The notes under the pieces: model-generated
What the model was told of the DNA's origin: nothing
The model's database searches: none
The model's input: the letters and a program-made list of their open reading frames with translations, nothing else
Program-made: the position numbers and the translations under genes
Part shown: positions 34,649-60,567 of the stretch, in pieces
How the letters are laid out: every line of letters starts with the position of its first letter
Numbering within the stretch: the stretch's first letter is position 1
Source of the DNA: Effrenium voratum
Taxonomy: Eukaryota > Sar > Dinophyceae > Suessiales > Symbiodiniaceae
Length of the DNA stretch: 64,000 nucleotides
Assembly: GCA_963377175.1 (NCBI GenBank)
Contig: CAUJNA010001529.1
Location: forward strand, 1 to 64,000
Direction of reading: 5' to 3'

Positions 34649-34664
34649 GGTTATCAGCCGTAGG
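34649..34664 (+). other. Element B primer-binding-site candidate
   Basis: GGTTATCAGCCGTAGG immediately after the 5' LTR, shared with element A except for one base. Its complement reads as a five-base stem strand, a seven-base loop CUGAUAA and two further C, the shape of a tRNA cut inside the anticodon arm. Drosophila copia primes from such a half tRNA (initiator Met). Which tRNA would be used here is unknown. Confidence 0.5.
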
Positions 34665-34702
34665 ACTTTCCTACGCGCTCCCCACGCTCTCAGAGGAGTG
34701 TC

Positions 34703-35110
34703 GTGGATGAGGAGGCTATCCTAGGTGGTCTCCGATCAGGTGAGGATGATGTTCCGAATCCTGGTGATGGCAGGAGGAACCCAGTTACCAGCAGTGCGCC
34801 GGGTGGCGATGGGCCTGATCTATCAAGCGTTTGCGCTCAGGACAACCCGAACGATCGCAGGCACCCGGATGCGAGCTTCACCTGCGTTACTTGCAGACGA
34901 AAGTTCTGCTCGTTGTGTCAGGGTGATGATGGAGACTGTTGGAATTGCACGCTCTTAAAGACAAAGTGCTGGGCTTGTCGCAGGAATGCTCAGGAGATAT
35001 CCATGTACACCTGCACGGACTGTGAGAAGATCATCTGCAATGAGCACACGTTTCTTGGACACGACTGTCTCTGCCTCGACAAGGACCTGCGGGTGTTGCG
35101 CCTGCGCTAG
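34703..35110 (+). CDS. Element B ORF with AN1-like zinc finger
   Basis: 135 codons from ATG 34703. After a disordered start comes a cysteine-rich region: CVTCRRKFCSLCQGDDGDCW, then CWACRRNAQEISMYTCTDCE and KIICNEHTFLGHDC. The latter (C-x2-C-x10-C-x2-C-x4-C-x2-H-x5-H-x-C) fits the AN1 zinc-finger spacing. AN1 proteins bind ubiquitin-system partners or RNA/protein complexes. As the first ORF after the leader it sits where gag normally begins; it may be the gag N-terminus or a separate accessory gene. Confidence 0.65.
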   Translation: MDEEAILGGLRSGEDDVPNPGDGRRNPVTSSAPGGDGPDLSSVCAQDNPNDRRHPDASFTCVTCRRKFCSLCQGDDGDCWNCTLLKTKCWACRRNAQEISMYTCTDCEKIICNEHTFLGHDCLCLDKDLRVLRLR

Positions 35111-35379
35111 CATGCTGCCAGCGACGCACGATCTGAGTATCAAAACCCATTCGGCAGTGCACTTGTCTTTCAGCGTGGCCTTTAACTGCGCAGTTGATGA
35201 AGCCTCGGGCGGGCGGACAGGGCTGTCTGGCCTGGGCAATGCAGGCCTGGCGCTGAACACGCGGCGTGAGGGGACCACTGCAATTGGTAGGCTGAGCCGG
35301 GGCCGGGCCTGACCTGTGCGGTCCTGACTGGCGTGTGTCTGCAAGGCTGCGCGGCCAAGGCCTGCAAGGCGGCTTGGGC

Positions 35380-35893
35380 AGAGGGCAGAGCGATGTTCGC
35401 GATGCCATGCGAGCCATGATCGCGCTGGCCGTGGACCGCCTTCCCCTGGGGGACCATCCGGTCATGATGGAAGTGGAGGCGATTCAGTTCCGCGCCCACC
35501 TCCAGGGCCTGGGCCTCCTGGCGGAGGACAAGGACCCACTGGACCACCTGGTGGCCCAACAGGCGGTGGCGGGGCGCCTCCCGGGGGATACCCGCGCCCG
35601 CGTTTAGCGGCACTGTTGCAGACTCATACGGAGCTGGGAACAACCAATGTGGTTCTAGTTTCTATGGTCCCGCTTACGGAGGTGGAGTCGGTCACCAAGG
35701 CGTTGGTGCTAGCGGTAGCCAGCCCAACGTTGTTGCTGGCTATCCATCGAGTATCGGTAGTGCCAGTACTCTCGGTCCAGGTCTTAGCCTTGGCTACAGT
35801 GTTCATGGCGCCGGTAGGCAGGGAGATGGCGGTCTTCTTCCTGAAGCTATGAGGGGAGATGACGGGGGACAAGTGCACCAAGTGTGGTGTTAG
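35380..35893 (+). pseudogene. Element B gag leader, Pro/Gly-rich
   Basis: One frame reads GPTGPPGGPTGGGGAPPGGY (about 35530-35590), and a second, after a shift, YGAGNNQCGSSFYGPAYGGG and onward to 35893. Together they look like a low-complexity P/G/Y-rich gag leader. A shorter competing ORF (35335-35607, 90 codons) in another frame has no known domain. The stretch 35110-35380 shows no clear reading. Confidence 0.45.
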
Positions 35894-36713
35894 AGTCCCC
35901 ATTTCCGGTCCCCCTCTCGTCCCATGCGTTGGCTGTGGAATGAGGGCATGTGACGTTTGCTGTCCACTTCCTGCTAGGCTGTGTGAAAGCTGTAGGATCA
36001 CCTCTTGTGGGGCGCTGATCTCGACTGTCGTTGATAGCAAGGATCGGTACCATCACAAGTGCAACACTATCACGTTGCCTCCTGAACCGACAGCTGATAA
36101 GCTTCGGGAATGGATTTCCGAGGTAAAGGAGAGGGTCAGGAATGCGTTCAGCTTTGACTCAGACTACGCGTTAGCGTGGATTTCTGAGACTGAGAGGCTT
36201 GACTATGATGCGCTAGGTGGGCCTTGTAAGTACCCGGTGTTGGATTTCACGAGTGCTATCAGGGATTGCATCAAGACGCGGGCCGTTAGGGACAAGATGA
36301 ATCGTCTCACGGAGGCCGCTCAAAATATGATCCCTCCTCAGGGCATCAAGGGAAGGCAGATCTTGAAGCTTTTGCTGAACCATCTGCAGACTGGAGTTGA
36401 GGACGACCAGACCTTCAAGATTGCTGAGCTGACCAGTCTCAAGTGTCGGCAGACAGGTCACTCTGACGATGAGGCTAGGCTCCGTAGTTATCTGAGCACA
36501 TGGGACAATCTCATCTACGGGATCAAGAGGAAGATCGATGACGGGGTGTTTCTAGCCGTGTTCATTGAGAACGTTCGTCATCTACGCTGTATGCGGCCTG
36601 ACATCGAGAGATGGGATCGCGATGAGACCGTTAGGTCTTTTCCGTGGCTCTATAAAGCTTGTCAGGACTGTGTCGAGCGATGGCAGAAGCGCCAGAACAC
36701 GCTTCAGATGTAA
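35859..36713 (+). CDS. Element B gag core
   Basis: 284 codons. A cysteine-rich start (CTKCGVRVPISGPPLVPCVG, CGMRACDVCC, CESC) is followed by the helical gag core: YALAWISETERLDYDAL, SAIRDCIKTRAVRDKMNRL, GIKGRQILKLLLNHLQTG, TFKIAELTSLKCRQTG and DDGVFLAVFIENVRHLR. Gag packages the element RNA. ATG 35859 overlaps the end of the Gly-rich frame. The stop (36711-36713) is followed at once by a 20-bp perfect palindrome and a second hairpin, while a +1 frame stays open into the CCCH zinc-finger part. Confidence 0.65.
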   Translation: MTGDKCTKCGVRVPISGPPLVPCVGCGMRACDVCCPLPARLCESCRITSCGALISTVVDSKDRYHHKCNTITLPPEPTADKLREWISEVKERVRNAFSFDSDYALAWISETERLDYDALGGPCKYPVLDFTSAIRDCIKTRAVRDKMNRLTEAAQNMIPPQGIKGRQILKLLLNHLQTGVEDDQTFKIAELTSLKCRQTGHSDDEARLRSYLSTWDNLIYGIKRKIDDGVFLAVFIENVRHLRCMRPDIERWDRDETVRSFPWLYKACQDCVERWQKRQNTLQM

Positions 36714-37260
36714 GCAGAGATCCCGATCGGGATCTCACTCTCGTGAGAGGGATCGACATCCTGGAGCTCCTGGGGTTGTTCGAAGATACGACCCGCTCGC
36801 AAGGAAGAGCGACCCAAGTCCTTCAAGGTCCGTTAGGTCCGGGAAGGATGGGAAGCCAAGGTCATCTTCGCCCGGGAGGAGCAGTCAGAGGGACAGAGCA
36901 TCTCCTGGGAGAGGCAGTCAGAGGGACAAGCGTACCCCGTCTCCTAAGTCGCCGAGGAGGCAGTCGCCCGCCGGGCCTGCTGATCGGTCCTGCTGGGAGT
37001 ATGCCAAGACGGGGAAATGTCAGCATGGTCGAGAATGCAGGTTCGAGCATGACACAAACCCAAAGAACCCTGCGGCGCCCTCTACTCCGAGGACTGGTGA
37101 TAGGCCCGTTCCGGGTACGAAGCCTATCACGCCTCGTACCACTGCCGGCCCCGTCGTTGAGGATGAAGAGGAGGAGGCCCCTAGGTCACCTACGCCCAGT
37201 CCTCCCGATAGGGAGGCGGGGCGTCTTGACAGCCCCGCTCAAGGATTGACGGATTTTTAG
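36714..37260 (+). CDS. Element B gag C-terminal part with CCCH zinc finger
   Basis: In the +1 frame relative to gag (open from 36565). An RS-rich stretch (RSRSGSHSRERDRHPG; GKDGKPRSSSPGRSSQRDRA) is followed by CWEYAKTGKCQHGRECRFEH, a canonical C-x8-C-x5-C-x3-H finger, then an acidic proline-rich tail to the stop at 37258-37260. CCCH fingers bind RNA and probably take the nucleocapsid role. Whether the +1 shift is programmed, as in Ty1, or a mutation cannot be decided from the sequence. Confidence 0.65.
36717..36748 (+). other. Double hairpin at the gag stop codon
   Basis: A perfect 20-bp palindrome at 36717-36736 begins four bases after the gag stop. It is overlapped by a second inverted repeat (TCTCAC at 36733-36738, GTGAGA at 36743-36748). 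Structure just downstream of a stop or shift site is typical of recoding signals, so it could help reach the CCCH frame. Confidence 0.5.
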
Positions 37261-37261
37261 G

Positions 37262-37961
37262 TGGGGCGGGCCGTAACCCTGAGGCCAACCGTGTTGTTGT
37301 GGCGTGTCCCGTTACGTGGGCTGTTGCCCCAGCTACCGGTGGGTCTGCACCGGGTTGTCTCCCACCTTGCGTTAGCAGTTGGGAGAAAAGTGAGCGTAAC
37401 GCGTTGTTCTTCTCCGGTGCTACAGGCGGAGGTCCCAAATGGGACCAAGTCATTTGGAGAAGGACCGTCGATGCAAATGGGACCGTGATCGAGGATATCG
37501 GGGTGAACTCCGGTGATCGTCGAGCGACCTTATTCAGGAGGCTCCCGAGACGAACTGACATCAAGACAGTGTTTTGGTACTGTGATGATGCGGAGGTTGC
37601 GCTGTCCTGGAGAAGCAAGTACTTTCAGCGGGGTCCCGATAGGGAACCTCTGAGGGTCAAGATCCCTGATCTCCCTGATGTGTTTGTTGTTTCAATTGAA
37701 AATGACAACACGGGCAGGGTCGTTAGTCGCTGCAGAGAGGCTGGATACAGCCATCCTGATGCGATCAAGTTCCCATCTCGCAAGAGAATTGCTAGGGAGG
37801 TTCAGAGTGCTCTGATAAGAGCTGCGGCTGTTCATGCCCAAGTGCTCTTGACAATGATGACGACATCGACACCAACCCTGGAGATGTACGGGGACATCGT
37901 GTTGTCCGAAAGCCGAAGTACACTCAGAAGGTTGCTGCACCTGTTGGATACAGCGGGGTGA
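37262..37961 (+). pseudogene. Element B protease leader
   Basis: An open frame (220 codons from 37299) with WDQVIWRRTVDANGTVIEDI, TVFWYCDDAEVALSWRSKYF and HPDAIKFPSRKRIAREVQSA. It precedes the protease in the same order as in element A but has no catalytic motif. It differs in frame from both the CCCH part before it and the DTG part after it. Confidence 0.45.
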
Positions 37962-38484: not shown

Positions 38485-38700
38485 CACCGACTTCCGCGCA
38501 GGGCGAAGTTTGTGCCTACTGATGGTGATTGTCCCGTTAGGGTCGATCAACTGAATAATTACAGGAAAACAATCATTCACCGAAATGGGGTTACCCATGA
38601 GGTGTTGGTTGATAGTCTGTGGGAGTTGTCCGAAAGAGATCAGCATGCGATAGCATCTGATGTTCCTTGGACGGGCGAGACGTGGTTCCAGGTCAAAAGC
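38485..38700 (+). other. CPVR module, copy 1
   Basis: AKFVPTDGDCPVRVDQLNNY followed by RKTIIHRNGVTHEVLVDSLW and WTGETWF. The same about 70-residue pattern recurs after the integrase (39640-39860). It lies between protease and integrase, in frame with both neighbours on this side. Confidence 0.65.
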
Positions 38701-38819: not shown

Positions 38820-39500
38820 CGGGCTACGCACTGAAGCCGAATGGCGTGCAGATGCTAAGACGCTCCGCCATATGCTCACGCATCTCCCGAAGAATCCCTA
38901 TTGCCCACACTGTCAGCGTGCGAAGATGGAGAATGTCAAACTTCGCCGCAAGGGCGGTGCCGCTGCGCATGACGTGGCAAACTTCGGGGACTGAACCACC
39001 GCTGACACAATGGTGTTGAGAGGACTGAAGGACCGAGGTTTTCATGGCGAAGCAGACGCGATAGTGTTCTATGACCTCGCTACTGACTACCTCGATGTCC
39101 TTCCTGTGCAATCCAGATCCCGTAGCAATACGCTGGAGGCATTTCGCAGGTTTGCAGGGGGGCAAACTCTGAAATTAGTGTACAGCGATCAGGCACCGGA
39201 GCTGAAGAATGCTGTCACTACACTTGGTGCGTTGCACCGGCTTTCTACACCGGGCATGCCTAAGACCAACGGCCTGATCGAGAACAAGGTTAAGCTCGTT
39301 CTCCATGGGGCACGTGTGCTCCTGCGTCAAGCCGGATTTGAACCTCGATGGTGGCCGTTTGCCGTTAGGCATTTCTCCATGGCAAGAAATATTGAGAATC
39401 GAGGCGACGGATCACCATGGACGCGACGCCATGGTGACGGAAGCTTCAGCGGAGTCATTCTGCCGTTTGGCTGTCTGGTCGACTTCTACCCCGTTGCTCC
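38820..39500 (+). pseudogene. Element B integrase
   Basis: The zinc domain LRHMLTHLPKNPYCPHCQRA (H-x3-H...C-x2-C) is followed by NFGD-stop-TTADTMV with the first catalytic D, LKLVYSDQAPELKNAVTTLG with the second D, and PKTNGLIENKVKLVLHGARV with the E. The DDE core inserts cDNA into DNA and produces the 5-bp duplication. One in-frame TGA (38992-38994) sits next to the first D; otherwise the frame is unbroken from 38125 to 39648. Confidence 0.85.
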
Positions 39501-40480: not shown

Positions 40481-40878
40481 CGCATTCACGTCGAAGTGCG
40501 GAAGAAGTTCTTCGGGACGACGAATGAGGACCTTCCTCCAGGTGGTCCATCGCATGAAGAGCTTGACACCGTTAGGGTCACTCACATGCGAGGGCTCGAT
40601 GCAGTTGGGAATTGGGTGAGGGATGATCGTCGCCACGATGCTCCCAACCATCGGCATTTTACGCGTGGATTTTGGACAGGTGTGACTATCCTCTTTGATA
40701 AGGGATGCGCTCCCCACGGTAGGCTCAGGCCAAAGGAGCGAAGCCTGCCGGAGACTCGAAGAAGGGTCACAAGCTGCACGGAGATAGGATCGACTATGAC
40801 CAATCCGCCGATAGGCGTGAGCGGCCATACGCCAGCACCGGAAAGCCCAGCTCCATTGATGCGGATAGTTGGAGACAG
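40480..40878 (+). pseudogene. Element B linker, broken frames
   Basis: A readable piece (VRKKFFGTTNEDLPPGGPSH and EELDTVRVTHMRGLDAVGN) lies between the GLFLGY region and the methyltransferase-like ORF. No known domain. At least one more frameshift separates it from 40879. Confidence 0.4.
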
Positions 40879-41478
40879 ATGTCTACCCGGTCACGGGAGA
40901 TATATGTTCAAGCCGAACGGGAGTTATCCCTAAGGGAAGAACGACGTCGAGAACATCCTGAGAGGGACCCGGCTGCCCCAGTGCCCGGCCGCAAGCTCCT
41001 CATTGAGTTTGCGTGCGAGCCCGACTCACGTCTGTCTGCGGTGATGATGGAGTGCGGCGGCGAAGCAATTCGCGTCCATATTGGCTCATTTGACATCACC
41101 AAAGCCAAGGACGTTAGTCGGCTCATTGCGATCATTGAGGATAATCCTGGGTGCGACCTTTGGGCGTCAATTCCGCGTGGACCGTGGAGTACATGGCAGT
41201 ATGTGAACCTTTCACTTCACGGTGCTGAGTTTGCATCACACCTGAATGATCTGAGAAGGAATTCTCAGGTCATGTTTGCAGCATTCCTGCGGGCCTCCCG
41301 AGCCGTTAGGCGAGGAGGGGGCAGGGTTGCATTTGAGTGGCCTAGACACTGTCTTGGATGGAAGCAACCATTCATGCAGAGGTTTCTTGCTGATCCTGAT
41401 GTCGAGACCGTTGGCTTTGACGGGTGTGATTTCGGAATGCAGGACAAGGACGGTGTGCCGATCAGGAAGCAGCGGTAG
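40879..41478 (+). CDS. Element B methyltransferase-like domain, PPC-type loop altered
   Basis: KLLIEFACEPDSRLSAVMME begins a Rossmann-like fold. VHIGSFDITKAKDVSRLIAI follows, then CDLWASIPRGPWSTWQYVNL, RGGGRVAFEWPRHCLGWKQP and VGFDGCDFGMQDKDGVPIRK. The (S)xPxxPWS loop corresponds to the PPC/IPC loop of Cys-5 methyltransferases; I recall related dinoflagellate retroelement domains with C at the third position, here R (IPRGP). The frame ends in TAG (41476-41478) but continues in phase into the dUTPase. Function unproven and probably lost. Confidence 0.55.
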   Translation: MSTRSREIYVQAERELSLREERRREHPERDPAAPVPGRKLLIEFACEPDSRLSAVMMECGGEAIRVHIGSFDITKAKDVSRLIAIIEDNPGCDLWASIPRGPWSTWQYVNLSLHGAEFASHLNDLRRNSQVMFAAFLRASRAVRRGGGRVAFEWPRHCLGWKQPFMQRFLADPDVETVGFDGCDFGMQDKDGVPIRKQR

Positions 41479-42135
41479 GTTGCGACAACCTCCAAGGAGC
41501 TCATTGATGAACTATCAGGTCGAAAATGCAAGCACGAAAAGGGTTACCTTCATGCACGCATTGAGGGGTCGGTCACCCCGACGACTGCTCTGGATCCAAA
41601 TGCAATGTGTGAGGCAATCGTTGGAGCCTGGTATCCGAACGGCACGTTCAAGAAGGTCGCGAGTGCTATGCCGGTCGAAGTTGATCCGGTTGAGCAGCGA
41701 TGGAAGAAGAAGCCAAATACTTTGTACGTCAGTCTTGACAGCAAAAATGCCAAGATCCCGACGCGGGCTTCTTCGGGGAGTGCGGGTTTGGACACCTATG
41801 CCTCTGAGGGAGTGTGTATTCCCGCAGGGGGGTCAGGTTTGGTTAGTACCGGGATCTCGATAGAGATGCCCGCGGGGGTATATGCTAGGATAGCTCCCAG
41901 ATCAGGACTAGCCGTGAAGAACAGGATCGCTGTAGGTGGCGGAGTCATCGATCCCGACTACGACGGAGAGGTCAAGGTCATCCTCTTCAACCATGGGGAT
42001 GAGGATTTCATCGTGAGGCCTGGGGACCGCATCGCGCAGATTGTGCTGGAGCGTGTAAATGCTCATTGATGCATCAATCGTTCCCAGGAAGACCAGACGG
42101 GGAACCGATAGGTTTCGGAAGCACAGGTATAGCTG
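41479..42135 (+). CDS. Element B dUTPase
   Basis: A trimeric-type dUTPase with the family motifs in order: motif 1 [13 protein letters not shown], motif 2 [13 protein letters not shown], motif 3 [19 protein letters not shown], motif 4 [14 protein letters not shown]. Motif 5 ([10 protein letters not shown], about 42099-42128) is present but in a shifted frame after a TGA at 42067-42069. dUTPase hydrolyses dUTP to dUMP, keeping uracil out of newly made DNA; retroviruses such as lentiviruses and betaretroviruses encode one. It lies between integrase and RT. N-terminal sequence [15 protein letters not shown] links it to the methyltransferase-like part. Confidence 0.9.
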
Positions 42136-43345
42136 CTGCCGCTCCTAATTGGATCCGATGGAAAGACCTTTGAGTTCTCTATGCCCAGGGGGGAGATATC
42201 CCTCTCGCATCGACCAAAGAGCTCGGGTGCCTTCCCTCCCTTGTACGCTTGTGTTGCTAGGCCAGTCAACAAAAAGGAACAAGCTGGAAATGCCAAGGCT
42301 AAAGCCGCTCTACAGAAAGAGCGGGACAAGTTGACCTCGCAGGGATGCTGGGACTTGTCGACTGTCCAAGAATGGCATGATGTTGCGGCTAGGGCGCGGA
42401 AGGAAGGGGAAAAGATCCATGTTGGTAGGATTTTCGACATCTGCGTCGAGAAGAATCATGAGCTGCCAGAAGACGATCCGAATCGCAAGTATAAAGGGCA
42501 AGTCGTCTTCGAGGGATGTTTCGTCCGTGATGAGATCGGGCACTGGGCCTTGTTCTCTGAAAGCACCTCCTGCCCCGCCACTATGGCGGCGGGAAAGATG
42601 GGTGATGCTCACGGGTTACTTCCCGGGAATCTTCTGGAAGTGAGTCATGGGGAGTCAGCGTACACTCAGGCCCGCCTGAAGGGAAAGAAGACTTGGGTGA
42701 GGATTCCTCGTGACCAGTGGCCTCTAGCGGGAATCCCAAGTATAAGGACACAGTCGTTGTCCTCGTGCTCGCACTGTATGGACATCCCGACGCTGGTACC
42801 TTTTGGGAGCAGCACTGCGAGGCTATGCTGAAGAAGGTCGGTTACGTCAAGGTAAAGGACTGGGCCAGCGTGTTCAGGCACGAAGAGCTTGACCTCTTCC
42901 TTGTCGTGTATGTGGATGACTTCAAGATGAGTGGGCCGGCGAAGAATATTGCAACTGGATGGGCGCTGATCTCGAAAGTCATCAAGATGGAGGAACCGAG
43001 GCAGCTCAAGAGATATCTTGGCTGCGAGCACGAATTCACACAACAGCTGGTTAAGGGCCATTTTGATCCAAGGCTGGCGTGGACAGTGGGCAATCCTCCT
43101 GATAAGGAGCAACTCGACTTGAGATTCGGTCCAGAGGGGTTACTCTCTAAGGACATTCCCAAGCCGGAAACCACAATAAGGTTCATCAAGTACAGCAAAA
43201 GTAGCTTCATGCAGGCGTGTGTCGATAGATACATCGAACTGTGTCAGGGAAAGTACCCGAAGAAGCTGCAAAAGGTTGAGACACCATTCCTGGACAAGAG
43301 CAAGCCAGAGTTTGACGAGAATTCCGTCAATCCTCAATGCACAGC
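42136..43345 (+). pseudogene. Element B reverse transcriptase
   Basis: Frame 1 (42181-42720) holds the RT fingers: KERDKLTSQGCWDLSTVQEW, FDICVEKNHELPEDDPNRKY, GKKTWVRIPRDQWP. A shift near 42720 leads to LALYGHPDAGTFWEQHCEAM, LDLFLVVYVDDFKMSGPAKN (intact YVDD active site, about 42892-42951) and KRYLGCEHEF. RT copies element RNA into cDNA. Compared with element A the catalytic site is intact, but the shift splits the enzyme. Confidence 0.88.
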
Positions 43346-44085
43346 CAGGATGCCTCGGGAATGATGCGGCGGCGGTGCTGATGAAGGTTCTCTACGGGGC
43401 TCGGATGGGCAGGTATGACCTCATTCGTCCCGTGCAGGCGTTAGCCAGCCGGGTCACGAAGTGGAATCATCTGTGTGACCGCAAGCTCCACAGGCTAATT
43501 TCATATGCGAACTCTACGCTTGACCTTCATTTATACGGTTGGGTGGGCGATAGCCCAGAGTTCATTGAGATAGTCGCTTACTGTGATGCGGATCTGGCCG
43601 GGGATCGTACCGATTCTAAAAGCACATCGGGAGTGCTTATCTGCCTTGTGGGTCCTAGGACCTACATGCCCATCACTGGAGTAAGCAAGAAGCAGACTTC
43701 TGTTTCGAAGTCAACTCCTGAAGCAGAGATCGTTGCCCTTGACCATGGAGTGTCCAAAGAGGGAATGGCGTTAGCTACCCTCTGGCAGCACGCCATTGGG
43801 AAAGGAAAGGAGACCCAGCCGTTCATTATCAACGTGCTGGAGGATAACGAATCGGCGTGCCGAATCGTTATAACTGGGAATAATCCCAATATGCGCTATA
43901 TGTCGAGGACACAGCGCATTGACATCTCTTGGCTCAACGAACGTTTCAATGATGGTATTTTTCGATTCGTTGCATGCCCGTCTCACTATCAAGGTGCAGA
44001 CATTTTTACCAAGGCCTGCATTGACAAGGTCGTATGGAACAGAAATCTGCATACCCTTGGTATGTTCCTGCCGGGATACCTGCAG
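43345..44085 (+). CDS. Element B RNase H
   Basis: GNDAAAVLMKVLYGARMGRY and HRLISYANSTLDLHLYGWVG connect RT to RNase H. VAYCDADLAGDRTDSKSTSG holds the first catalytic D, KSTPEAEIVALDHG the E, VLEDNESACRIVITG the next D, and GADIFTKAC the copia signature. RNase H degrades the RNA strand of the hybrid. The frame is clean to 44823, so the C-terminal tail below is translated with it. Confidence 0.88.
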
Positions 44086-49369: not shown

Positions 49370-49402
<33 letters not shown>

Positions 49403-49593
49403 CAAAAAATGCCACACATGCACACTTTTAAATAAATACACGCAGTGCCCAACTCACGCACCGTACCGTCCGTCGCACATGCAGTTTTCCCGCCCGCGCT
49501 GTCGTCACGTAAGGAAATCCCTCGCGAACGCAGGGCCGCGTGCATGAATTGCGCACACGGCGCGGCACTGGGCCGCGCGCGCATGCAAAGCCT

Positions 49594-50054: not shown

Positions 50055-50276
50055 GCTCAGGCGCACCCTGCGCAAAGTGAAAAGGCTGCGGGGCCTGCAA
50101 AGAAACACCTTTGCGGCGTGGCCGCACGCTCAAGCACGCCTCTTGCAAAGCGCTTCCGCCAAAGCAGGGCCAGGCACGCGCGCCACAATCGCGCGGCGTG
50201 GCCGCGAAGCACATGCGAAGCAAAGCAGCGCGCGCTGTTTTCCGTATAGGCGCTGCGCAGAGCTCTGGGCGCTTCT

Positions 50277-50903: not shown

Positions 50904-51163
50904 ACAGCTCGAGACTCATGCGGATGCTGCGGCAATGCCGCACGCCTGCACATGACACGCATGGGTGCGCGAGTGTGTCCGCTACACATACGCCTTTTTC
51001 TCGATCTCGAAATCGCGCACTCTCAATCACGCTGCGCGCGTGATGGCTGGCCACGCATGACACTATATATATCGCGCGGGGGGATGCATGCATATAGGTT
51101 TTGCGAAAAGGGGCCTCTTCGTGCCATGCTTGGCGCAGCGCGGCTTATATACGCATGCACGCA

Positions 51164-52284
51164 CTAGTCATGTGCACGGAGCTTTGCCTGCTCCTTCTTT
51201 GCCTTCCGAAAATCCGCGAGGGCGCTGTTGGCCGCTTTCACCCTGAGCGGCACGTCCTTGGCGCCGAAGGGGACGGGGGGCAAGGCTTTGCCGCTGGTGA
51301 ACTTGCTGACGCGGGCGGCCGCCGCATCTTGCCAGGCGGAGACTTCGTCGAGGTGCTTCTGCGCGGCCTGCACCTCAGCGGCCGCGGGGTCCAGAGGACC
51401 GAGGTTCCCCACGGCTGCGCGCAGCTTGTCCAGCAAAGGCCTGAAGGCCGCCACTGCCTTTGCCGCTGTCCTTCTCCGTGTTCTTTTTCCAGCCCTTCTT
51501 CGCCGGCTTGCACTCGTCGTCGGAAGAGTCGGAGGACAGGCCTACCAGCGGCTCACTCCCGCCGCTCTCGGGCTTCTTGCGCTTCACTGCGCGCTCCGCT
51601 TTTTGCACGACCTCCTCGATCTCCTGCGCAACGTTCGACTGGGAGACCGAGTGGATGGGCGCCCTCCACGTCTCGCCCAGAGCGGCGTTCCACTCCTGGT
51701 CGCCGTGGGCCACGATCATGTCCGTGTTGTAGCCCTGCACGGCCCACACTTCGAGCGGCAACCCCCCCACCTCATCCTTGAGCTCCCTGGTGCGGCGCAG
51801 CCGCAAGCTGCTGGCAAGCAGCGCCCTCACCTTGCTGTAGGCCAGCCTCCCGTCACCTGCGGTCTGATCCTTCGCCTTGCGGAAGAACTCGGTCTTTTCC
51901 GCATCCGTCAAGGCCAGCGACTCACTGCAGATGTTCCTCGACAGGCACATCGACAGTCGGTAACATGAGCGGCACCAACGCGCATTGCTGCCTTTCGCGA
52001 CCGCTTCCTCCGGGTCGGTCTCCATGAAGCACTTGGCGCACACCACTCCCTCACCTGAAGCTGAAGCTGCCGAAGGAGGCTCATCCACCAGCTGCCGCTC
52101 GTCATCCGTGAGGTCAACAGTCTGCAGAGCGGCCGCAGATCCCTCAACAGGCGGCTCTGCAGGCCGCCCTTCCTCTGCAGGCTTCTCCGCAGGCAGCTCT
52201 GCAGACCCCTCTGCTGGCGCGTCCTCAGCGTCCACCGCCACAGTGTCAGCCGGCATGGTCTCCTGCAGGGCCTGCGAGCTCATG
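51164..52284 (-). CDS. Nested transposon companion ORF with Cys cluster and GGLPLEVW motif
   Basis: From ATG near 52284: an acidic Pro/Ala-rich start, a zinc-like cluster (VCAKCFMETDPEEA...RWCRSCYRL), then LRRTRELKDEVGGLPLEVWA and VQGYNTDMIVAHGDQEWN. I associate the cluster plus 'GGxxLPLxVWxxxGY' with the partner gene found beside this transposase type in dinoflagellates. After about 51455 the ordered reading continues in another frame (AAFRPLLDKLRAAVGNLGPL...), so one shift or splice occurs there. Confidence 0.55.
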
Positions 52285-52439
52285 GCACGGCCGCGCAACT
52301 GCAACTATAGGTGCAGAGCCAAAACTGCGGCGCAGTGAACGAACATGCGTCTCCAGCTTCCCAGCGGCGCCGCCGCTTTCTTCCGTGCCTTTTTGCGGCC
52401 ATGTGTTTGTTGGCTCAAATACAATTTGCTTGGTCGGAT

Positions 52440-52625
52440 TTTGCTGCGGAAGCCCCGCCGAAAACAGTAACGTGCCGCGACGTGCCGCGACGTGCCGCGA
52501 CGTGCCGCGGGGTTTGCCCGGAGCGTTGTTTTTGAACGTGCCGCGGCCAAGTTTGCTTGACAATATGTAGAGGCACATTATTTTTTGGGGTCCGCGTGGA
52601 ACGTGCCGCGACGTGCCGCGACGCC
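52440..52625. repeat. CGTGCCGCGA decamer repeat
   Basis: About four head-to-tail copies at 52469-52510, then further copies at 52535-52550 and 52600-52622. GC-rich, within the nested transposon. Confidence 0.85.
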
Positions 52626-52884
52626 GCCGCGTGTTTTCTGCAGAGCAGCCTGCGCAGAAAAATTGAGAGACTAGAAAATTGCGAGCGGAGTCAAAAACAA
52701 AAATCCATGGCCAGAAGAAATTTGTCGCAGCTGAAAGGGGGAAGGTGGAAGACAAAATGAACTGCTTCGCAGAACAAAGCAAGCGGACTCCACCAAAGCT
52801 TCGTGCAGCATGTGCTGAATGAGCTTTGTGTCTTTGGGCAGCCATGGCTTCTTACATTTGGCTGGGCCAGTTTTCTCCAGGCCT

Positions 52885-53445
52885 CGCGTTTCCACGGCGA
52901 GCATTTCAGCAGCAGGATTTTTTCATGGGGCCTTGCCTTCGCGTTTCCACGGCGAGCATTTCAGCAGCAGGCAGCAGGATTTTTCCCATGAGCCTTCATT
53001 CACTTCGCAGCCATGCCTGTAGAACAGAGAACACGCAGATTTCCACGGCGAGCGTGCCAGCAGCAGGATTTTTTCGTGGGAGCCTTTCTGACACATGCGG
53101 GTTTCCACGGCGGGCATTTCAGCAGCAGTATTTTTTCATGGGGGCTTTCACTTCAGATGTGATGTCTGTAGAATGGCACGCAGGGGTTTCCATGGTAGGC
53201 GTTTCAGTGTAGCAGGATTTTTTTCATGGCAGCCTTCGCTTCACAGCCGTGTCCGCGTAGAATGAAACATTCAGCAGCTGGATTTCTTTCTGGAGCCTTC
53301 CCTTCGCATGTGATGTCTCAGGCGTTTCCACGGCGACCGTTTCAGCAGCAGGATTTTTTCATGGGCGCCTTCACTTCACACGCAGGGTCCGAGCGAGCAT
53401 TTCAGCAGCAAGATTTTTCCATGGGAGCCTTCACCTCGCGCGCAA
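52885..53445. repeat. Tandem repeat with tttccacggcgagcatttcag units
   Basis: Seven or more units of uneven length (about 50-140 bp) share a block tttccacggcgagcatttca then gcagcaggattttttcatgg, starting near 52889, 52938, 53039, 53102, 53188, 53325 and 53390. It lies between the two ORF groups of the nested transposon and could be its subterminal or regulatory repeat. Confidence 0.8.
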
Positions 53446-53459
53446 ACATGTTTGTAAAA

Positions 53460-54430
53460 TAAATTGTGAAATACGTGGGAATTCACCGCAGATACTCAAC
53501 AAACACACATGCCAAAAGAAAAATCGAATGACCGGCCGCCCAATCAGCTACCACGCTTGCGAAGCGCAGGCTGCGCGCATGGACTCCTACTTGTCAAAAA
53601 CTCGCCGCAGAAGTCCGCAGTAGCAGGCCGAACCACCCGCCTGAAACCTGGCCACAATTCAGAGGCCCGTCGCAAAAAAAAACACCGGGAAAGCGACCAG
53701 CATGAGCACAGAATCCCTCGTCAGCAGCGAAAGCGTTTGCCCGACAACTGGTCGCAGCCTTGAGGCCTGCGAAAAAAAAAAAGCAGCTGAGCAGTGAGCC
53801 CCCTCTATACCTGAAACCTGGCCTCGCCCCAAGGCCCGCGCAAAGATGAAGCAGCGGGTCCCTCCGCCTGAAACCTATACACGGAAGGCCCAGCTGAGCA
53901 ACGAGTCCGCTTGCCTGAAACTCTGCAGGAAAACGAAGCAAATGAGCCTGGCGCAGCTGCAGAAACCCACTGGCGATCCTGCTCGCAAAATAACTTGCAC
54001 ACTCCGGCTCACAGCAAGGCAGCTGCCCCAAAAGCGTCTGGCGAAAAAATGCCCCGCCCGAAAGTCTATGCCGCAAAGACCGAAGGCTTGCGCGAAGGCG
54101 GCGCAAAACACAACTACAAAGAACGAATCTGCATGCCAAGGCAGAAAATCAAATGCATGACCGCGGAGCTCCTACAAAACAATTCTGCTTGCAACACGCT
54201 GACTGCCATGAAAAACAAAGCGCCTTCAGGCAAATCTCAATGAATTCCAGTCAGTCAATATAGGCTATATGCAAGAGGCGAAAAACAAATATTTCTAAAT
54301 AATAAATCCTTAAAATCAAAAATATACATGTATATATATATATATGCACAAATACTCATAAGCCATCGACATGCACATTAATACACTAATCCTGCGCAGT
54401 CGCGCTAAAAGACATCAGCGGCAAGGCCGC
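53460..54430. other. Nested transposon spacer with degenerate repeats
   Basis: Degenerate cctgaaacctgg / aaggcccgc-caaag words recur from 53620 to 53960. From 54260 to 54420 it is AT-rich with a TATA run (54331-54345). Open frames here are short and compositionally biased; I call no gene. Confidence 0.5.
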
Positions 54431-55560
54431 TTAGTCCCACCCTCTCCCCGATTTTCCCCCCACGGCCAAGCGCGTCACTTCTTCTTGCCGCCGCGAGGGC
54501 GCCTGTAGCCCTTCTCCTCGAAGGCATGCTGCCGCTTCGACCTGCAGGGCGGAGGGGACAAGTGAAAAAAAGAGGAAGAGCGGCTGAGCCGCTTCAGTAA
54601 AAAAGCCACGCACGACAGCAGCACTGCTATTGTCGCCGAGCTGCTTCTCGGCCTTCGCTTTCGCCGCCGCGCTGCTGCCGCCGCCGCCGCCGCTGGCTGC
54701 GGACCTCGGGGCGGGAGCTGGAGGCGGCGCGGCCCATGGCGGAGCTGCCATGTGCTTGCCCGTGGCGCCAGGGTATGCCTTCGGCGGCGTCTTCGGCGAA
54801 GCGAGCGCGGGCATCTTTGGCAGCGAAGGAGCCACCGGGGCCTCGTCTGCTGCAGGAGCCGCGCAGGCTGCAGCAGGGGCAGCAGGGGTCGCTGCAGCGG
54901 GCGGCGCCGCAGCCTTCGCGGGCGGCGTTTTCGGCGCAGCCACCACGGCCGCGGCCGTCTTCGGCACAGCCGCAGCCGCTTGCGGCGTCTTCGGCGAAGC
55001 CGCAGCCGCAGGCGGCATTGGCACGGCCGCAGGCGGCGCCGCCGCCTGCGGCGCATCCAGCGTCTCCGCGATCTGCGCCAGTGCGGCAATGGCCGCCGGC
55101 TCATCCCCCACGCGCTCCGCCGTGTACTCCGAGTACTCCTCCTCCTCCTCCTCCTCCTCCTCCTCCTCCTCCTCCTCCTCGAGATCATCCTGCATGTGGT
55201 GCTGCTGCAGGATGTCCTGGTCCAAGCTGAGCTGCTCATCCTCTGCGTCCTCGTGCTTGACCGCGCGGCCCTTTTTCTCCTTCTTGTCCTTCTTGCTGCT
55301 TTTGTCCTTCTTGTCCTTCTTGCCCTTGTTGTCCGCGTCCTTCTCCGCGGTCTCCTTCTTGTCCTTCTCCGCGTTCTCCGCCGCGCTTGGCGCCACGCTC
55401 CGCGCGCTGTTCCTGCCGCGGCTCCTCCCGCGGCTCCTCCCACAGCTCCAGCTGTCCTCGCGCTCGGAGCTGGAGTCGCGCCAGCGGCGCCGCCGGCAGC
55501 GGCAGCAGCAGCAGCAGCAGTGGCAGCAGCAGCGGCAACAGCCGCAGCAGCCGCGACCCA
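54431..55560 (-). CDS. Nested transposon ORF, RS-like, acidic and Ala/Pro-rich
   Basis: From ATG near 55560: MGRGCCGCCRCCC, a serine/arginine tract (DSSSEREDSWSCGRSRGRSR), lysine-rich KKDKKDKSSKKDKKEKKG, a run of about 15 glutamates, then Ala/Pro text with repeated KTP(P/Q)A motifs. Fully low complexity, so it is probably disordered. The opposite strand and other frames are also open because of GC bias, so the coding claim is modest. Confidence 0.45.
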
Positions 55561-56052
55561 TGGCTCGCGACAACTGGGCGGCTGCACCTGTGTACCTTAT
55601 AGCCTCATGCACGTGCGCATGCCGCCTGAGCTGCCTCACCTCATGCACGCATGCGTGGCCTTCCTGCATGCATGAGTGGCTTGGGCCGAAAGCATGCATG
55701 CCATGCATGGAAGCTTAGCCGCCGCACGCGCTTCGCGGCGACGGCCGCGGAGTGCTGCGCGCGGCTACGTGGCCGCGTTGCTTCTGCGGGTCGCAGACTT
55801 GCCCGCGCGCACACATGCAAAAACCATGCGAAAAAAAAACAAGAACAAAAAACAATCGCGCACGAACACGCACGTGCGCCGCACGCGCCCTAACACCCAC
55901 ACGCGCGTGCGCACATGCAGGCACAAACGCGCACAGCGCGCGCACAAACACAGACGGACACAATCGGACAAAAAACGCACGCGCGCACACACACAGACGG
56001 ACACACACAAACACATGCGCAAACCAGCCCGTTTTCCTCCCGAGCATGCTCT

Positions 56053-56860
56053 TTATAGATTGCAGGGCGGGGCATGCCCTCTATACACCCAGCAGCTAGG
56101 GGTGCAGCCCCTGCGACCGCGGCACTTGCCGCAGCCGTGCGGAAAAAGCTTGAGCCTCTGTTTCTCAGAAGGAAAAGGCTTCAGCGGCTTCGACTTTGCT
56201 TTCCCCTTAGCTGTAGCTGCAGCGGGTCGCTTCATAGCGGCCCGCTGCTTTGGCACAGCTTTCCCCTTAGCAAAGCCCTTGCCTGCAGTGTTTTTAACGG
56301 GAGCTGCCTTCGCTTTGGCTGCGACGGGAGCTGCCTTCGCTTTGGCTGCGCACATGAGAGCCTCTGCGCACGCAGTCACGGCGGCTGCAGGATTCATCGC
56401 TGCGCGCGAGTTCAGGGCGTCCTTCAACTGCATCACTGTGGCCTGGTAGGCGCTTGGTGCCTGTGGCGCGGCGCTTGCTGCTTGAAGTGGCTTCAGCATG
56501 ACCGCAATCGGGACAGAATCCGCCGGCGGCTGCTGCTGTCGGTCCCCGTCGGAGTGGCGAGGATCTCGGCGCAAAGAGATGTCTCCGCTCCTGCTTCACG
56601 TGCTTCCTGCGGAGCGGCCGCTGCCGCTGCTGCGGTCTGCAGAAGAGCTGCAGGAAGAGGAGCTCCACGAGGGGCACTTGGCGCGGAAGTAGCGGCCGTG
56701 GCCGCTATGTGTGGCAGAGCTTGCTGCCGGGAAGCTGCTGCGGGCGGGCCCGCTGACTCAATCAACGTGTCCAAGCCCTCGACGAAGCTGCCTGCAGGCG
56801 ATGCGTCCTCTATGGCCGGCAGCCGCGGTGAAGAGGCCTGCCAGCTCCATGCGTGCGTAT
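56053..56860 (-). pseudogene. Nested transposon ORF with MKRPA and CGKCRGRRGC tail
   Basis: The C-terminal frame (56574-56053) has ALNSRAAMNPAAAVTACAEA, AKAKAAPV repeats, QRAAMKRPAAATAKGKAK and FPHGCGKCRGRRGCTPSCW. The MKRPA block plus a 'GCxKCRxxxxGCxxC' tail is familiar from dinoflagellate transposon-linked proteins. An N-terminal part in another frame (SPAGSFVEGLDTLIESAG) requires one shift near 56550. Confidence 0.5.
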
Positions 56861-56954
56861 GTGTGCGCGCGTGCGTGCGTCTGTGCGCTGTCTTGTGTGC
56901 GTGCACGCGCGCACGATCGCTGACACGAGCATGACGTGCGCGCAACAGTTATAT

Positions 56955-57545
56955 TTATGTGTTTAGCCGAGAGCCGCTCCTGCGACGTCTGCGAGCCATC
57001 GTGTGAGCGCAAGCCTGCACGCATGATCCGCAGCGCGGGATGTCCCTGCTGCAGCACCTGGCGCAAAGCCTGATGCACCACGCGCGCGGGGCCAGCCTAC
57101 CCGTGCGCCGCAGAGGCATCCTCTCCAGAAGCGCCTGCAGCTGCGTCAAGGGCACCAGCTGCTGCCCAGGCGATCCTGAGCCATATGCGGCCTGACGAAC
57201 GTGAGCAGGTAGATCCTCGAACCTGCGCGGCAAGTGGTGCGCCGCAGACGGAGGCAGATCGGCCACTCGAGTCCGCAGCAAGTGGCCGCGCGCATGGCCC
57301 TTGATCTGCTGTAAGGCTGTGAGCAGGTGGCTGCAGTGCCCGCTCCAAATTCTGTTCTGGTGGTACAAGATGCAGAACAGCATGCCAAAGGTGCGCTCCG
57401 CAAGCCCAGCAGCGCCGCGAAGTCCAGCAGCTTGCCAAGCAACTCCAAGTTCGCCGGCCAAGTAGGACAGGCCGCAACCTCCTGAGAGCGGAAGGCGCGT
57501 GAAGTCCTGCATCTTGCCGCAGCCCCGGGCATCAGCCTCTGCCAT
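56955..57545 (-). CDS. Nested transposon first ORF, unknown
   Basis: From ATG at 57545: MAEADARGCGKMQDFTRLPL, then AERTFGMLFCILYHQNRIWS and GHCSHLLTALQQIKGHARG. A TATATA lies within 15 bp upstream of the ATG (57553-57560). No domain was recognised. The reading continues to 56955 with arginine-rich text that may not be real. Confidence 0.45.
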   Translation of the reverse strand: MAEADARGCGKMQDFTRLPLSGGCGLSYLAGELGVAWQAAGLRGAAGLAERTFGMLFCILYHQNRIWSGHCSHLLTALQQIKGHARGHLLRTRVADLPPSAAHHLPRRFEDLPAHVRQAAYGSGSPGQQLVPLTQLQALLERMPLRRTGRLAPRAWCIRLCARCCSRDIPRCGSCVQACAHTMARRRRRSGSRLNT

Positions 57546-58000
57546 GGCGCCGCTATATACTGTCAGCAGTGCGTGGCTCGTGCGTACCTGCGCTTGTCTT
57601 GCTTCTGCATGTGCGCCTGCCTGCGTGCGTGTACGCCTGCCTGCGTGCGCCCACTCGCATGCCGCTGCGCTTGAGCATATGCAAGTCCGCGGCAAGGCCG
57701 CGCAGCATGATTCTCCATAACACTAGCCGCAAAGTATACGCCCGCGCATATAGAGCGGCAAAGCCGCTTTTTCCGCGAGATGCGCAACCCTGCGGCGGCG
57801 CCGCGTTAATTCTGCCGGTGTTTTCATGCCTGCATAATTTTTACGGAGTGTCAACTGCGCATTTTTCGCTGCGAATTATACGAAACTCTATAATTCGCTG
57901 CGATTTCCGCATTTTGTCGCTTCTGCAAAAAAAGTGCCAAAAAAGACGTCTAAAAAGTTATTTCTAGTTATTTTAGTTATTTAAGTTAGTTGAAGTTATC

Positions 58001-58105
58001 TTAGATACACAACTGCTAGAACTGCTAACCTTGACTATAAGTCCCCTTATACAAATTAACGAGACCACGTTGAGGAGTCTCGAGGGGGCATGCACAATTA
58101 TGTGA
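58001..58105 (+). pseudogene. C-terminal 34 codons of the split accessory ORF
   Basis: Read in phase from the right GAAGTTATC copy: LDTQLLELLTLTISPLIQIN and onward to a TGA at 58103-58105. It is the detached end of the ORF that starts at 45118, and is separated from it only by the nested transposon. Confidence 0.75.
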
Positions 58106-58600
58106 ACACACCCTACCCGGAGCACCCAGGGGAGGCGCCCGAGCTGATGCCAGCGGAGGTCAGGCATCACCGGGAGCAGAGCTCCTACCTTTCGTCGAGG
58201 GGACATCGGCGGAGCACAGGTCGAATAGGAGGTTCATCGTCCAGCATGTTCTGGCAAGGGAGGCTGGTGAGCCTTTCATCTATGCTGTGATCCGGAACAA
58301 GGCGATCACTCGGGAGCGGGTTACCGCTGCCCACATCGTGTTTCCTAATCGCGATAGCGAGTGGAACGCCGTGTTGGAGCGGGCTGTGCACAACGACTTC
58401 ATGTATGCGGCTCCCGAGCCGCTGGGAGGATTGATCAAGAGTACATCAACCCTCGAGACCGGAAATCTGCGCCATGGGCTGATCAGCAGTGGAACATGAA
58501 GAAGTTGGCGACTCAACATCCCGTTAGGGATGAGGCAGGACATTCAGGCGAAATACCACCATGGACGAGCGCCCCCGGGAGATTGGGCAGGTATGCCTGA
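58090..58600 (+). pseudogene. Element B accessory ORF 2, unknown, frameshifted
   Basis: ATG 58090 overlaps the stop of the preceding ORF. The start frame (NTPYPEHPGEAPELMPAEVR) gives way after about 58185 to a frame with RRFIVQHVLAREAGEPFIYA, VIRNKAITRERVTAAHIVFP and WNAVLERAVHNDFMYAAPEP. No family was recognised; the middle looks like a compact alpha/beta domain. Confidence 0.45.
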
Positions 58601-58998: not shown

Positions 58999-59413
58999 CA
59001 CGCTGGCGCAATCAGCGGCTGAAATCATGCTGTCCCATGTTTCGGCGTTGTCTCACTCGGGGTCTTCTGCCGATAGGAAGGAGATCCTCGGTAGGGATGG
59101 CAACCCATTCGGGAAGTCATGGTTTGAGGATGAGCCCGATGGAGCTACCTGGCCCGGACACCACATGGCTGGAGGTGTTGCCGTTCCCCTGAAGCCAAAG
59201 ACGAAGATCGTATGGGGAAAGCGACCCCATGTTGATGACGAGGGCGAGATGGACCCGGAGGCGAGCTCATCGGGGCAACAGAGGACCGAGCCGGCCCCCG
59301 ATAGGGGTGCCGGGTCAGGAAAGGACGACGACGAGACTCTTCCTGATATAGGGAAACTTTCCATGGCGGAGGAGAAGAAGGACGACATGGATGTGGACCA
59401 GGAGTGGAGATGA
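58964..59413 (+). CDS. Element B accessory ORF 4, acidic C-terminus
   Basis: 149 codons overlapping the end of ORF 3. QSAAEIMLSHVSALSHSGSS, GNPFGKSWFEDEPDGATWPG and KPKTKIVWGKRPHVDDEGEM precede an acidic tail. No known domain. Confidence 0.4.
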   Translation: MRTIPTREQMPDTLAQSAAEIMLSHVSALSHSGSSADRKEILGRDGNPFGKSWFEDEPDGATWPGHHMAGGVAVPLKPKTKIVWGKRPHVDDEGEMDPEASSSGQQRTEPAPDRGAGSGKDDDETLPDIGKLSMAEEKKDDMDVDQEWR

Positions 59414-59996
59414 TCTTCACTCTGCGCTTGGTAGGTCTTCGGCAAAGGATGCGGTAGCGCCCTTGACGGCCTCTAAGGCGATGGCGATGAAGCCTGAAGG
59501 GAGTGAGGTCAGGTTGCAGTCGGCGGAGCGAGCTGCTGCGAGCTCGGTGGAGGGTCATTTCCTGGTGTTGCCGGAGAGTTCGGTGGTGGACGCCTTCCTG
59601 ACGATGTCATCCAATAGGGTGCTAAATAGGCAGGTCAGAGATTTCATCAGGAATGGTGAGAATGCTTCTGCACTGGAGGTCCTCAACCAGATTGTGACAA
59701 ACTCTCGCCTCGGGAGAGGGCGTCGAGATTCGGATGTTTCCCGTACTCCTTCTCGGAGGTCCGTTAGGACTCTGGACACCAGGGATTCCCGAGAATCGAG
59801 AAGGCGCAGATATCGACCGCGGCGCGACGAAGATCGAGACCGGAGGAGGGACGATGTTCGAGATCGTCGTGATGATGATTCGCTCGATCGAGAGCGAGAT
59901 CGAAGGCGAGATGATCGCAGGAGATCCGAGAGGGATCGTGACAGGGACCGTGCGAGGGGCGGACGTGACCGGAGAAGACGTGACGATAGCCGATAG
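59391..59996 (+). CDS. Element B accessory ORF 5, RD/RS-rich tail
   Basis: 201 codons overlapping ORF 4. The ordered part (SSVEGHFLVLPESSVVDAFL, NRQVRDFIRNGENASALEVL) is followed by a long arginine/aspartate-rich tail (RDRRRDDVRDRRDDDSLDRE) like the RD/RS tails of RNA-binding proteins. It could bind nucleic acid or the element's RNA. Family unknown. Confidence 0.45.
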   Translation: MWTRSGDDLHSALGRSSAKDAVAPLTASKAMAMKPEGSEVRLQSAERAAASSVEGHFLVLPESSVVDAFLTMSSNRVLNRQVRDFIRNGENASALEVLNQIVTNSRLGRGRRDSDVSRTPSRRSVRTLDTRDSRESRRRRYRPRRDEDRDRRRDDVRDRRDDDSLDRERDRRRDDRRRSERDRDRDRARGGRDRRRRDDSR

Positions 59997-59999
59997 GCT

Positions 60000-60559
60000 G
60001 AGTCACGGGGATTGCGGCCGATAGGCTTGCGTCCATTCTCCGATGGTCGGCGCGGTGCGGAGGTGATGATGTTCCTTCCGGACCGCTGAGGCGCGGAGAT
60101 CATGTCTCTCCCGCACCGCTGCTCGGCTGCTGGTCGTGCTCATCATGAAGTAGTGTGAGTGAGAGGGGATGCAAGGTACTCCCAAGTTTGCGGAATTCAA
60201 ATATTTTTCAGATACGCATGGTCAGGGGTACCTCTTCCCGATAGGCGAGGGTACTGATGAACATTCGTTATCCTTTATTTCATGGCTTCTGATAAGAATT
60301 GAACTACTTGCATTGTTGATGCAAACAGTTGTGGCCTAGTGTCGTCATGTGGACTTTTCCACAAGGTATGTTGGACAGCGTTACCCCGATTAATTCGGGG
60401 TGGTGGCGGGAATTTAATGCCCGGGATGTCGCGCAACTGCCTTTGTGGGTTTGCTCCACCGCTGACGGCGGTAGTGTCCAGCTGTTTGCGGACGCATGCG
60501 AGCAGTTAAATCCTATCAGTAAATGGCACGCTCCACCCGTCATATGACGGGCTCCTCGT
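60000..60559 (+). other. Element B 3' untranslated region with palindromes
   Basis: No gene. Contains a mini-hairpin (60017-60026), an inverted repeat CCCCGA...TCGGGG around 60384-60400 and a perfect 16-bp palindrome CCCGTCATATGACGGG at 60536-60551, just upstream of the polypurine tract. Confidence 0.6.
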
Positions 60560-60567
60560 GAGGGGGG
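60560..60567 (+). other. Element B polypurine tract
   Basis: GAGGGGGG directly abuts the 3' LTR, the place and composition of the plus-strand primer of LTR retrotransposons. Confidence 0.9.

Follow-up and report, generated by a model that had tools for sequence, protein, structure and literature searches.

A recurrent G-[A/U/G]-U-A tetraloop hairpin along the sense strand of a giant Copia-like retrotransposon of Effrenium voratum, a candidate dispersed packaging signal

In the dispersed packaging signals of small RNA viruses such as MS2, stem-loops with one common recognition motif are scattered in large numbers across a genome that doubles as the mRNA (PMC6281560). Among long terminal repeat (LTR) retrotransposons, the Gag proteins of Ty1 and Ty3 are believed to pick out the genomic RNA by means of cis-acting sequences; the Ty1 signals known so far map close to the 5′ end, and extra scattered sites are described as likely but undefined (PMC4974528). 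Here, we analyzed a 64,000-nucleotide stretch of the Effrenium voratum genome (contig CAUJNA010001529.1, positions 1 to 64,000, forward strand; hereafter the window) containing a Copia-like LTR retrotransposon, termed element B in an initial annotation of this DNA and interrupted by a nested insertion. A motif recurs on the sense strand of element B: a stem of 4 to 6 bp, frequently with C-G as its closing pair, that ends in a G-[A/U/G]-U-A tetraloop. As in MS2-type genomes, stem-loops of one motif are distributed along the RNA, but here the loop is near exact (G-D-U-A, where D is A, U, or G), the genome is that of an LTR retrotransposon of about 23.5 kb, and binding by a coat protein is putative.

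A complete scan of element B revealed 38 hairpins with a GATA or GTTA loop (in DNA letters) and a stem of at least 4 bp, all on the + strand and located between positions 36092 and 60298. For the counts, element B was taken as 34655-47100 plus 58300-60567, and the nested insert as 47101-58299. The initial annotation had listed 20 of these hairpins, mostly C-G closed; all are present at the coordinates given, making for an accurate but incomplete list. It had also counted twelve hairpins with 3-bp stems, for which the scan gives 16 (15 in the 5′ part and 1 in the 3′ part). The hairpins with longer stems enclose 26 of the 74 GATA words and 12 of the 45 GTTA words of element B, compared to 3 of 63 for the next-ranked tetraloop, GCAA, with no other tetraloop above 3. 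The anticipated enrichment over other tetraloops thus holds, as does the excess over shuffled sequence: in 200 dinucleotide shuffles of nearly the same segments, the mean was 0.27 hairpins and the maximum 2, and when left and right arms were taken from different sites, only 0.9 of 119 would be expected. A third loop type, GGTA, is rarer and occurs once in the window. The hairpins had been described as absent from the nested transposon, and indeed none of its 13 GATA/GTTA words carries a stem of at least 4 bp; the same is true of the 105 words in window positions 1-29000 and of the 59 words in a TG-rich tract. Since no TATC or TAAC hairpin with such a stem is present in the window, the loop is strand specific.

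A repeated peptide motif had been dismissed as the cause, and synonymous-codon shuffles, which abolish the hairpins, rule it out. In six ORFs (open reading frames) from three other copies of the element, some of them homologous, shuffling left 0.14 to 0.58 hairpins per ORF, compared to 6 to 20 observed (82 in total). The loop G fell on codon position 1 in 51 of these, on position 3 in 23, and on position 2 in 8. These last 8 contradict the earlier claim that only two codon phases are used because the third would create a TAG codon; TAG arises only with a C-G closing pair, and the third phase is therefore possible.

Six other copies of the element each contain 45 to 70 hairpins with GATA, GTTA, or GGTA loops, counted without overlaps between sequence pieces. 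The reference copy, c2767, has 68 hairpins with stems of at least 4 bp over about 23 kb, a large share of which is open frames, with a mean spacing of 338 nucleotides (nt). Sites occur at 3 to 8 per 2-kb bin along the whole length of the RNA, not at its 5′ end alone. Across the six copies, 0 of 331 GCTA words lie in stems of at least 4 bp, compared to 26 to 40% of GATA words (these word counts include small overlaps between pieces). This lack of GCUA suggests that loop position 2 would also be read by a binding partner. Copy c3385 (L019, L013, L014, and L020) contains 16 GGTA hairpins, compared to 2 to 6 in the five others, and several of its GGTA loops correspond to an A-to-G change at loop position 2 relative to c2767. 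In addition, four CTTG hairpins are found in c2767 (L009, L010, L015, and L016), with stems kept in all four cases in c3385, and possibly constitute a minor second loop class. Antisense-loop hairpins of the TATC class number 5, 3, and 6 in L021, L022, and L041, respectively, which suggests that these contain inverted segments; reversed blocks are present in the alignment of L041.

In alignments of diverged copies, the hairpins coincide in position, and the differences are mostly fold-keeping substitutions, with 0 to 2 indels per ordered copy pair. Stems vary freely in sequence from site to site. Between c2767 and c3385, for which the background identity is 92%, all four inner pairs were kept in 66 of 68 hairpins and the loop was the same in 55. 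As a control, 109 of 115 hairpins with other tetraloops aligned without an indel, and the stem was kept in 70 of these 109 (Fisher P = 8.6e-8). Stem changes were then counted between c2767 and 15 further copies or pieces. Among 20 guessed pieces of 3 kb, 10 aligned over more than 150 bp to the reference piece and 10 did not, and 9 entered the count. In hairpins with a live loop, the distinct changed pairs comprised 24 G.U, 4 A.C, 5 two-sided Watson-Crick, and 8 other pairs, an excess of G.U over A.C (P = 0.0002) where background substitution counts predict near parity. Where the loop was lost, the changes were 2 G.U, 2 A.C, and 3 others. Within single sequences, sites with one non-Watson-Crick stem pair gave G.U:A.C ratios of 18:3 in c2767 and 21:1 in c3385. 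Finally, the predicted probability of the closing pair with 60-nt flanks was 0.83 for native flanks and 0.66 for shuffled ones, the native value being higher at 45 of 57 sites, compared to 0.33 and 0.30 for 104 other tetraloop hairpins. The excess over codon shuffles, the retention of stems, the preference for G.U, the compensatory changes, and flanks that favor folding together support the view that these sequences act as sense-strand RNA hairpins under purifying selection.

A preference for G.U over A.C on the sense strand would not be expected from selection on DNA. Given also the strand-specific loop and stems that are particular to each site and retained in place, we consider it very improbable that the hairpins are DNA-level sites, a selfish palindrome, or a mutational by-product, despite the common core shared by many sites. 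HIP1 and the mitochondrial double-hairpin elements are examples of selfish palindromes and had been proposed as models. We found no near-identical palindrome and no insertion as a unit, the stems being variable and indels as scarce as stated above, and this candidate was rejected. What stands from the natures first suggested is a sense-strand RNA structure under purifying selection, with which a packaging or protein-binding site would be compatible.

The loop itself was conserved in c3385 at 98 to 100% for positions 1, 3, and 4 and at 84% for position 2, positions 3 and 4 being unchanged relative to c2767 at all 68 sites. Such constancy of U3 and A4 would also be expected from substrates of an RNA-modifying or RNA-cleaving enzyme (A-to-I editing at the loop U-A, pseudouridylation, or RNase III-like cleavage). 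However, dozens of cleavage sites would destroy the genomic RNA, and editing that is copied back should build up GATG loops, yet a stem of at least 4 bp flanks only 1 of the 141 GATG words of the window copy; this makes the enzyme explanation distinctly improbable. The conserved positions 3 and 4 also form a self-complementary UA, through which kissing contacts could arise inside one genomic RNA or between two and promote compaction or dimerization. In support of such contacts, GACG tetraloops are tied to packaging, and perhaps dimerization, in alpha- and gammaretroviruses, and one of them centers the maedi-visna dimer site, according to PMC516450. Nevertheless, two A-U pairs are weak, and UA-UA pairing leaves the exclusion of C at position 2 unexplained; loop kissing, which we rank third, seems improbable as the main function.

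The closing pair of the 68 hairpins was C-G in 39, G-C in 13, A-T in 9, and T-A in 7, compared to 39, 31, 24, and 21, respectively, in hairpins with other tetraloops (C-G versus G-C, P = 0.04). A GAUA tetraloop has been discussed as stable with C-G closing, and a GAUA sequence within the octaloop of a mengovirus stem-loop was unstructured in the same account (PMC3173479). Below the apical stem, a lower stem of at least 5 bp across an internal loop was present at 31 of 95 sites with stems of at least 3 bp, where mixed flanks predict 7.7. In the four copies tested, the pairing excess peaked around 5′ positions 8 to 13 with one extra 5′ nucleotide, followed by two. This resembles the MS2 operator, which has a 5′-side bulge below its apical stem. 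The 16 lower stems with a 5′ surplus of 1 or 2 nt were more conserved than the outer flanks (0.947 versus 0.867 in c333, 0.930 versus 0.894 in the window, and 0.976 versus 0.943 in c3385).

To place the motif in its genomic context, we searched five 10-kb stretches elsewhere in the genome (50 kb), in which GDTA hairpins made up 2 of 265 words, and 1 of 212 on the other strand. No such hairpins were found in five 3-kb Copia-like fragments from four other families (chosen by RVT_2 score; two were 98.9% identical). Together, these results rule out base composition or a genome-wide habit as the cause. They also bear on the possibility that a host RNA-binding protein recognizes the hairpins, being either exploited for export, translation control, stability, or retention in a particle-forming body, or titrated by the element. 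The sequence evidence for loop-read hairpins in sense RNA would fit a host protein equally, and so would the spread of sites over the whole RNA, but hairpins are not in excess in this small sample of host sequence and Copia-like fragments. We therefore regard a host partner as unlikely, although it ranks second among the explanations considered. Searches of viral and prokaryote contigs returned no relative. Rfam, scanned to E = 10 over 34269-47060, gave three weak matches, none at the gathering score; comparing the sequence of one long frame with the PDB yielded no partner (best E, 0.77), and Pfam searches on the long ORFs found no candidate partner beyond CCCH fingers. Among the matches listed for dinoflagellate LTR elements, Ty1 and dispersed packaging, and GNUA loops, no title or abstract in the open-licence literature gave an account of such a motif.

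A fixed loop on a variable stem, in sense RNA and repeated along a genome, is the pattern expected from a loop-recognizing protein. LTR retrotransposons package their own RNA and the gag region here has CCCH-type fingers, and our first choice is therefore that the hairpins are a dispersed, packaging-signal-like cis-acting motif of the element, bound by Gag or its ribonucleoprotein; we hold this tentatively, with a confidence just short of even. A loop-reading protein, in all likelihood Gag of the element itself or an RNA-binding domain associated with it, would dock at each hairpin, and many copies of it would coat, select, and compact the full-length RNA for particle assembly and reverse transcription. 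Dispersed packaging signals have been proposed to act in this manner in small RNA viruses, and MS2 (PMC6281560) and satellite tobacco necrosis virus (PMC3593212) serve as the models. A more specific picture is possible, if held with less confidence: the genomic RNA could be an array of about 70 to 90 copies of a single tetraloop receptor, G-[A/U/G]-U-A, laid over coding sequence and bound along the whole molecule by one loop-reading protein.

Several observations weigh against Gag docking or against the selection on which it depends. At loop positions 3 and 4, conservation reaches only 89 to 91% in c333 and the window, partly through loss of whole loops, which affected 6 reference hairpins in c333 and 3 in the window. 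The within-sequence G.U:A.C ratio is weak in the window (5:3) and is 15:7 in c333, and the counts are not independent because the copies share history. Changes in 30 lower stems comprised 18 A.C, 12 G.U, 1 Watson-Crick, and 6 others; with A.C exceeding G.U, selection on the lower stems cannot be claimed to equal that on the apical hairpin, and the lower stem would be a helper at most. Loop conservation in this lower-stem comparison was disregarded as evidence, since it included only copies in which the loop still matched. Structure prediction for the Gag region was poor (mean predicted local distance difference test score, 41), and no RNA-binding surface could be proposed. Lastly, PMC4974528 locates the packaging signals of Ty1 in the first 580 nt from the 5′ end, and dispersed sites are thus no general requirement of Copia elements; the other Copia-like fragments are likewise free of the hairpins.

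Table 1. Features of the element in the window.
Feature	Position	Strand	Remarks
5′ LTR, 386 bp	34269..34654	+	direct repeat pair; at least 40 genomic matches at 97-100%
Gag-like ORF (named by position)	35853..36710	+	59 homologous proteins, no Pfam domain
ORF with CCCH zinc finger	36556..37257	+	PF25585 4.1e-05, PF18044 8.3e-04; below Pfam cutoff in window
dUTPase domain	41605..42066	+	PF00692, 5e-35
Copia-like reverse transcriptase fragment	42714..43361	+	PF07727 4.4e-06, below Pfam cutoff
Nested insertion, approximate ends	47019..58072	.	no counterpart in three other copies; alignments stop at 47018, resume at 58073
3′ LTR, 338 bp	60568..60905	+	direct repeat pair; shorter than 5′ LTR
GATA hairpin, 4 bp	36092..36103	+	
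GTTA hairpin, 4 bp	36166..36177	+	
GTTA hairpin, 5 bp	36625..36638	+	
GATA hairpin, 6 bp	37201..37216	+	lower stem across 4/3 internal loop
GATA hairpin, 4 bp	37634..37645	+	
GATA hairpin, 5 bp	37739..37752	+	
GATA hairpin, 5 bp	37809..37822	+	
GTTA hairpin, 5 bp	38585..38598	+	
GATA hairpin, 4 bp	38645..38656	+	single 5′ bulge, then 5-bp lower stem
GTTA hairpin, 4 bp	39360..39371	+	
GATA hairpin, 4 bp	40806..40817	+	
GTTA hairpin, 4 bp	40919..40930	+	GATA in one copy
GTTA hairpin, 4 bp	41539..41550	+	GATA in three copies
GATA hairpin, 5 bp	41854..41867	+	
GATA hairpin, 4 bp	42103..42114	+	11 extra bases within 3′ arm in other copies
GATA hairpin, 4 bp	42191..42202	+	
GATA hairpin, 5 bp	43007..43020	+	single 5′ bulge, then 5-bp lower stem
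GATA hairpin, 5 bp	43096..43109	+	
GATA hairpin, 5 bp	43544..43557	+	
GTTA hairpin, 5 bp	44203..44216	+	
GATA hairpin, 5 bp	44349..44362	+	GTTA in three copies
GATA hairpin, 5 bp	44390..44403	+	
GATA hairpin, 4 bp	44436..44447	+	
GTTA hairpin, 4 bp	44505..44516	+	
GATA hairpin, 5 bp	44750..44763	+	
GATA hairpin, 4 bp	45238..45249	+	GGTA in one copy
GATA hairpin, 5 bp	45302..45315	+	
GATA hairpin, 5 bp	46001..46014	+	closing C-G in window, T-A in two copies, C/A mismatch in one
GTTA hairpin, 6 bp in window	46273..46288	+	then one extra 5′ base and lower stem
GATA hairpin, 4 bp	46682..46693	+	
GATA hairpin, 5 bp	46992..47005	+	
GTTA hairpin, 5 bp	58315..58328	+	
GATA hairpin, 4 bp	58349..58360	+	
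GTTA hairpin, 6 bp	58517..58532	+	
GGTA hairpin, 4 bp	58586..58597	+	third loop type, absent from the initial annotation
GATA hairpin, 4 bp	59296..59307	+	
GTTA hairpin, 4 bp	59759..59770	+	
GATA hairpin, 4 bp	59988..59999	+	
GATA hairpin, 4 bp	60287..60298	+	

Judged from its sequence, the window copy is a damaged member of a giant (about 23.5 kb) Copia-like LTR retrotransposon family. In the 1.16-Gb genome, this family has at least 40 LTR matches and six contigs with LTR pairs 21.8 to 26.2 kb apart. The window's own LTR pair shares 85.8% identity over 386 aligned columns, gaps counted, compared to 99.2 to 99.7% within four other copies. Relative to six other copies, it shows about 11 kb of extra sequence at the nested insertion, a sign of damage, and some portions of the 5′ and 3′ regions, together with about 1.7 kb at the insert, have no aligned equivalent in it. 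When compared with the 5′ LTR of c2767, those of four copies, among them the window copy, are 98.2 to 99.7% identical. These near-identical LTRs contrast with interiors differing by about 3 to 19%, for which LTR homogenization and strong constraint are candidate explanations. Long T/G-rich tandem repeat tracts lie on both sides of the element (29494-34267 and 60911-62217), and it may have inserted into such a tract. The 3′ LTR also contains TTTGGCTCAAG at 60629-60639, which matches the end of the dinoflagellate spliced leader and occurs a second time in the window at 11241-11251.

The reverse transcriptase domain (RVT_2, PF07727) scored 26.9 bits in the window and 25.6 bits in c2767, both under the cutoff of 31.6. 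The element is nonetheless called Copia-like because the c2767 reverse transcriptase frame aligns to well-scoring RVT_2 elements of the same genome: over 495 residues, including the reverse transcriptase part, it aligns to a frame of L055, a genomic fragment chosen for its high RVT_2 score (E = 3e-14; no match for the shuffled control), and more weakly to L056-L059. An upstream c2767 frame aligns to the portion of L056 upstream of its reverse transcriptase (E = 1e-5), and the reverse transcriptase alignment continues past that domain. The parts upstream and downstream of the reverse transcriptase, read by eye in the translations as a putative integrase and a putative RNase H, respectively, had no Pfam match at E = 0.1. 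The CCCH finger passes the Pfam cutoff in c2767 (PF18044, 26.4 bits versus 24.6). Stop-to-stop frames in the other copies form overlapping blocks over most of the element. Among Copia-like elements, this one is very large at full length, and it contains long frames without recognized domains (L013, L014, L020, and L027-L029), one of them 2,107 amino acids long with no Pfam match at E = 0.1. A clear dUTPase domain lies inside this LTR retrotransposon.

If the proposed role is correct, we know of no earlier LTR retrotransposon with a genome-wide, exact packaging or coating code that is visible from sequence comparison alone. Whether scattered sites drive the packaging of genomic RNA is an active question in RNA viruses, and such sites are only suspected for Ty-type elements in PMC4974528. 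Here, the regularity of the motif and the many diverged copies within one genome make the sites, the loop rule, and sense-strand selection readable statistically. The reading predicts a protein with affinity for GAUA, GUUA, and GGUA loops and none for GCUA. In addition, the coding sequence is under a strong constraint at the RNA level, by which standard codon analyses of the element would be misled.

With regard to known systems, the element has two features of dispersed packaging signals, namely, shared-loop stem-loops along the genomic RNA and selection on the sense fold. The retroviral GACG tetraloops are similar in that they start with G, carry a self-complementary dinucleotide at positions 3 and 4, and are linked to packaging (PMC516450). 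They differ in having C-G in place of U-A. To our knowledge, GACG tetraloops do not form genome-wide arrays. In domain d of the enterovirus oriL, loops of the GNYA/GNUA class, including GUUA and GCUA, are reported to adopt the UNCG fold, the shape of which is read by 3C/3CD (PMC5633025, PMC6563195); however, this replication element is described there as present once or twice per genome and as functional with GCUA, unlike the dozens of hairpins per genome and the 0 of 331 GCUA words found here. Satellite tobacco necrosis virus (STNV) likewise has about 30 short stem-loops that follow a four-letter loop rule, AXXA, within one genome and are assigned to coat protein binding. Its rule is degenerate and applies to loops of 4 to 6 bases (PMC3593212), whereas the loop described here has exactly four bases and selection on it is seen through the comparison of copies.

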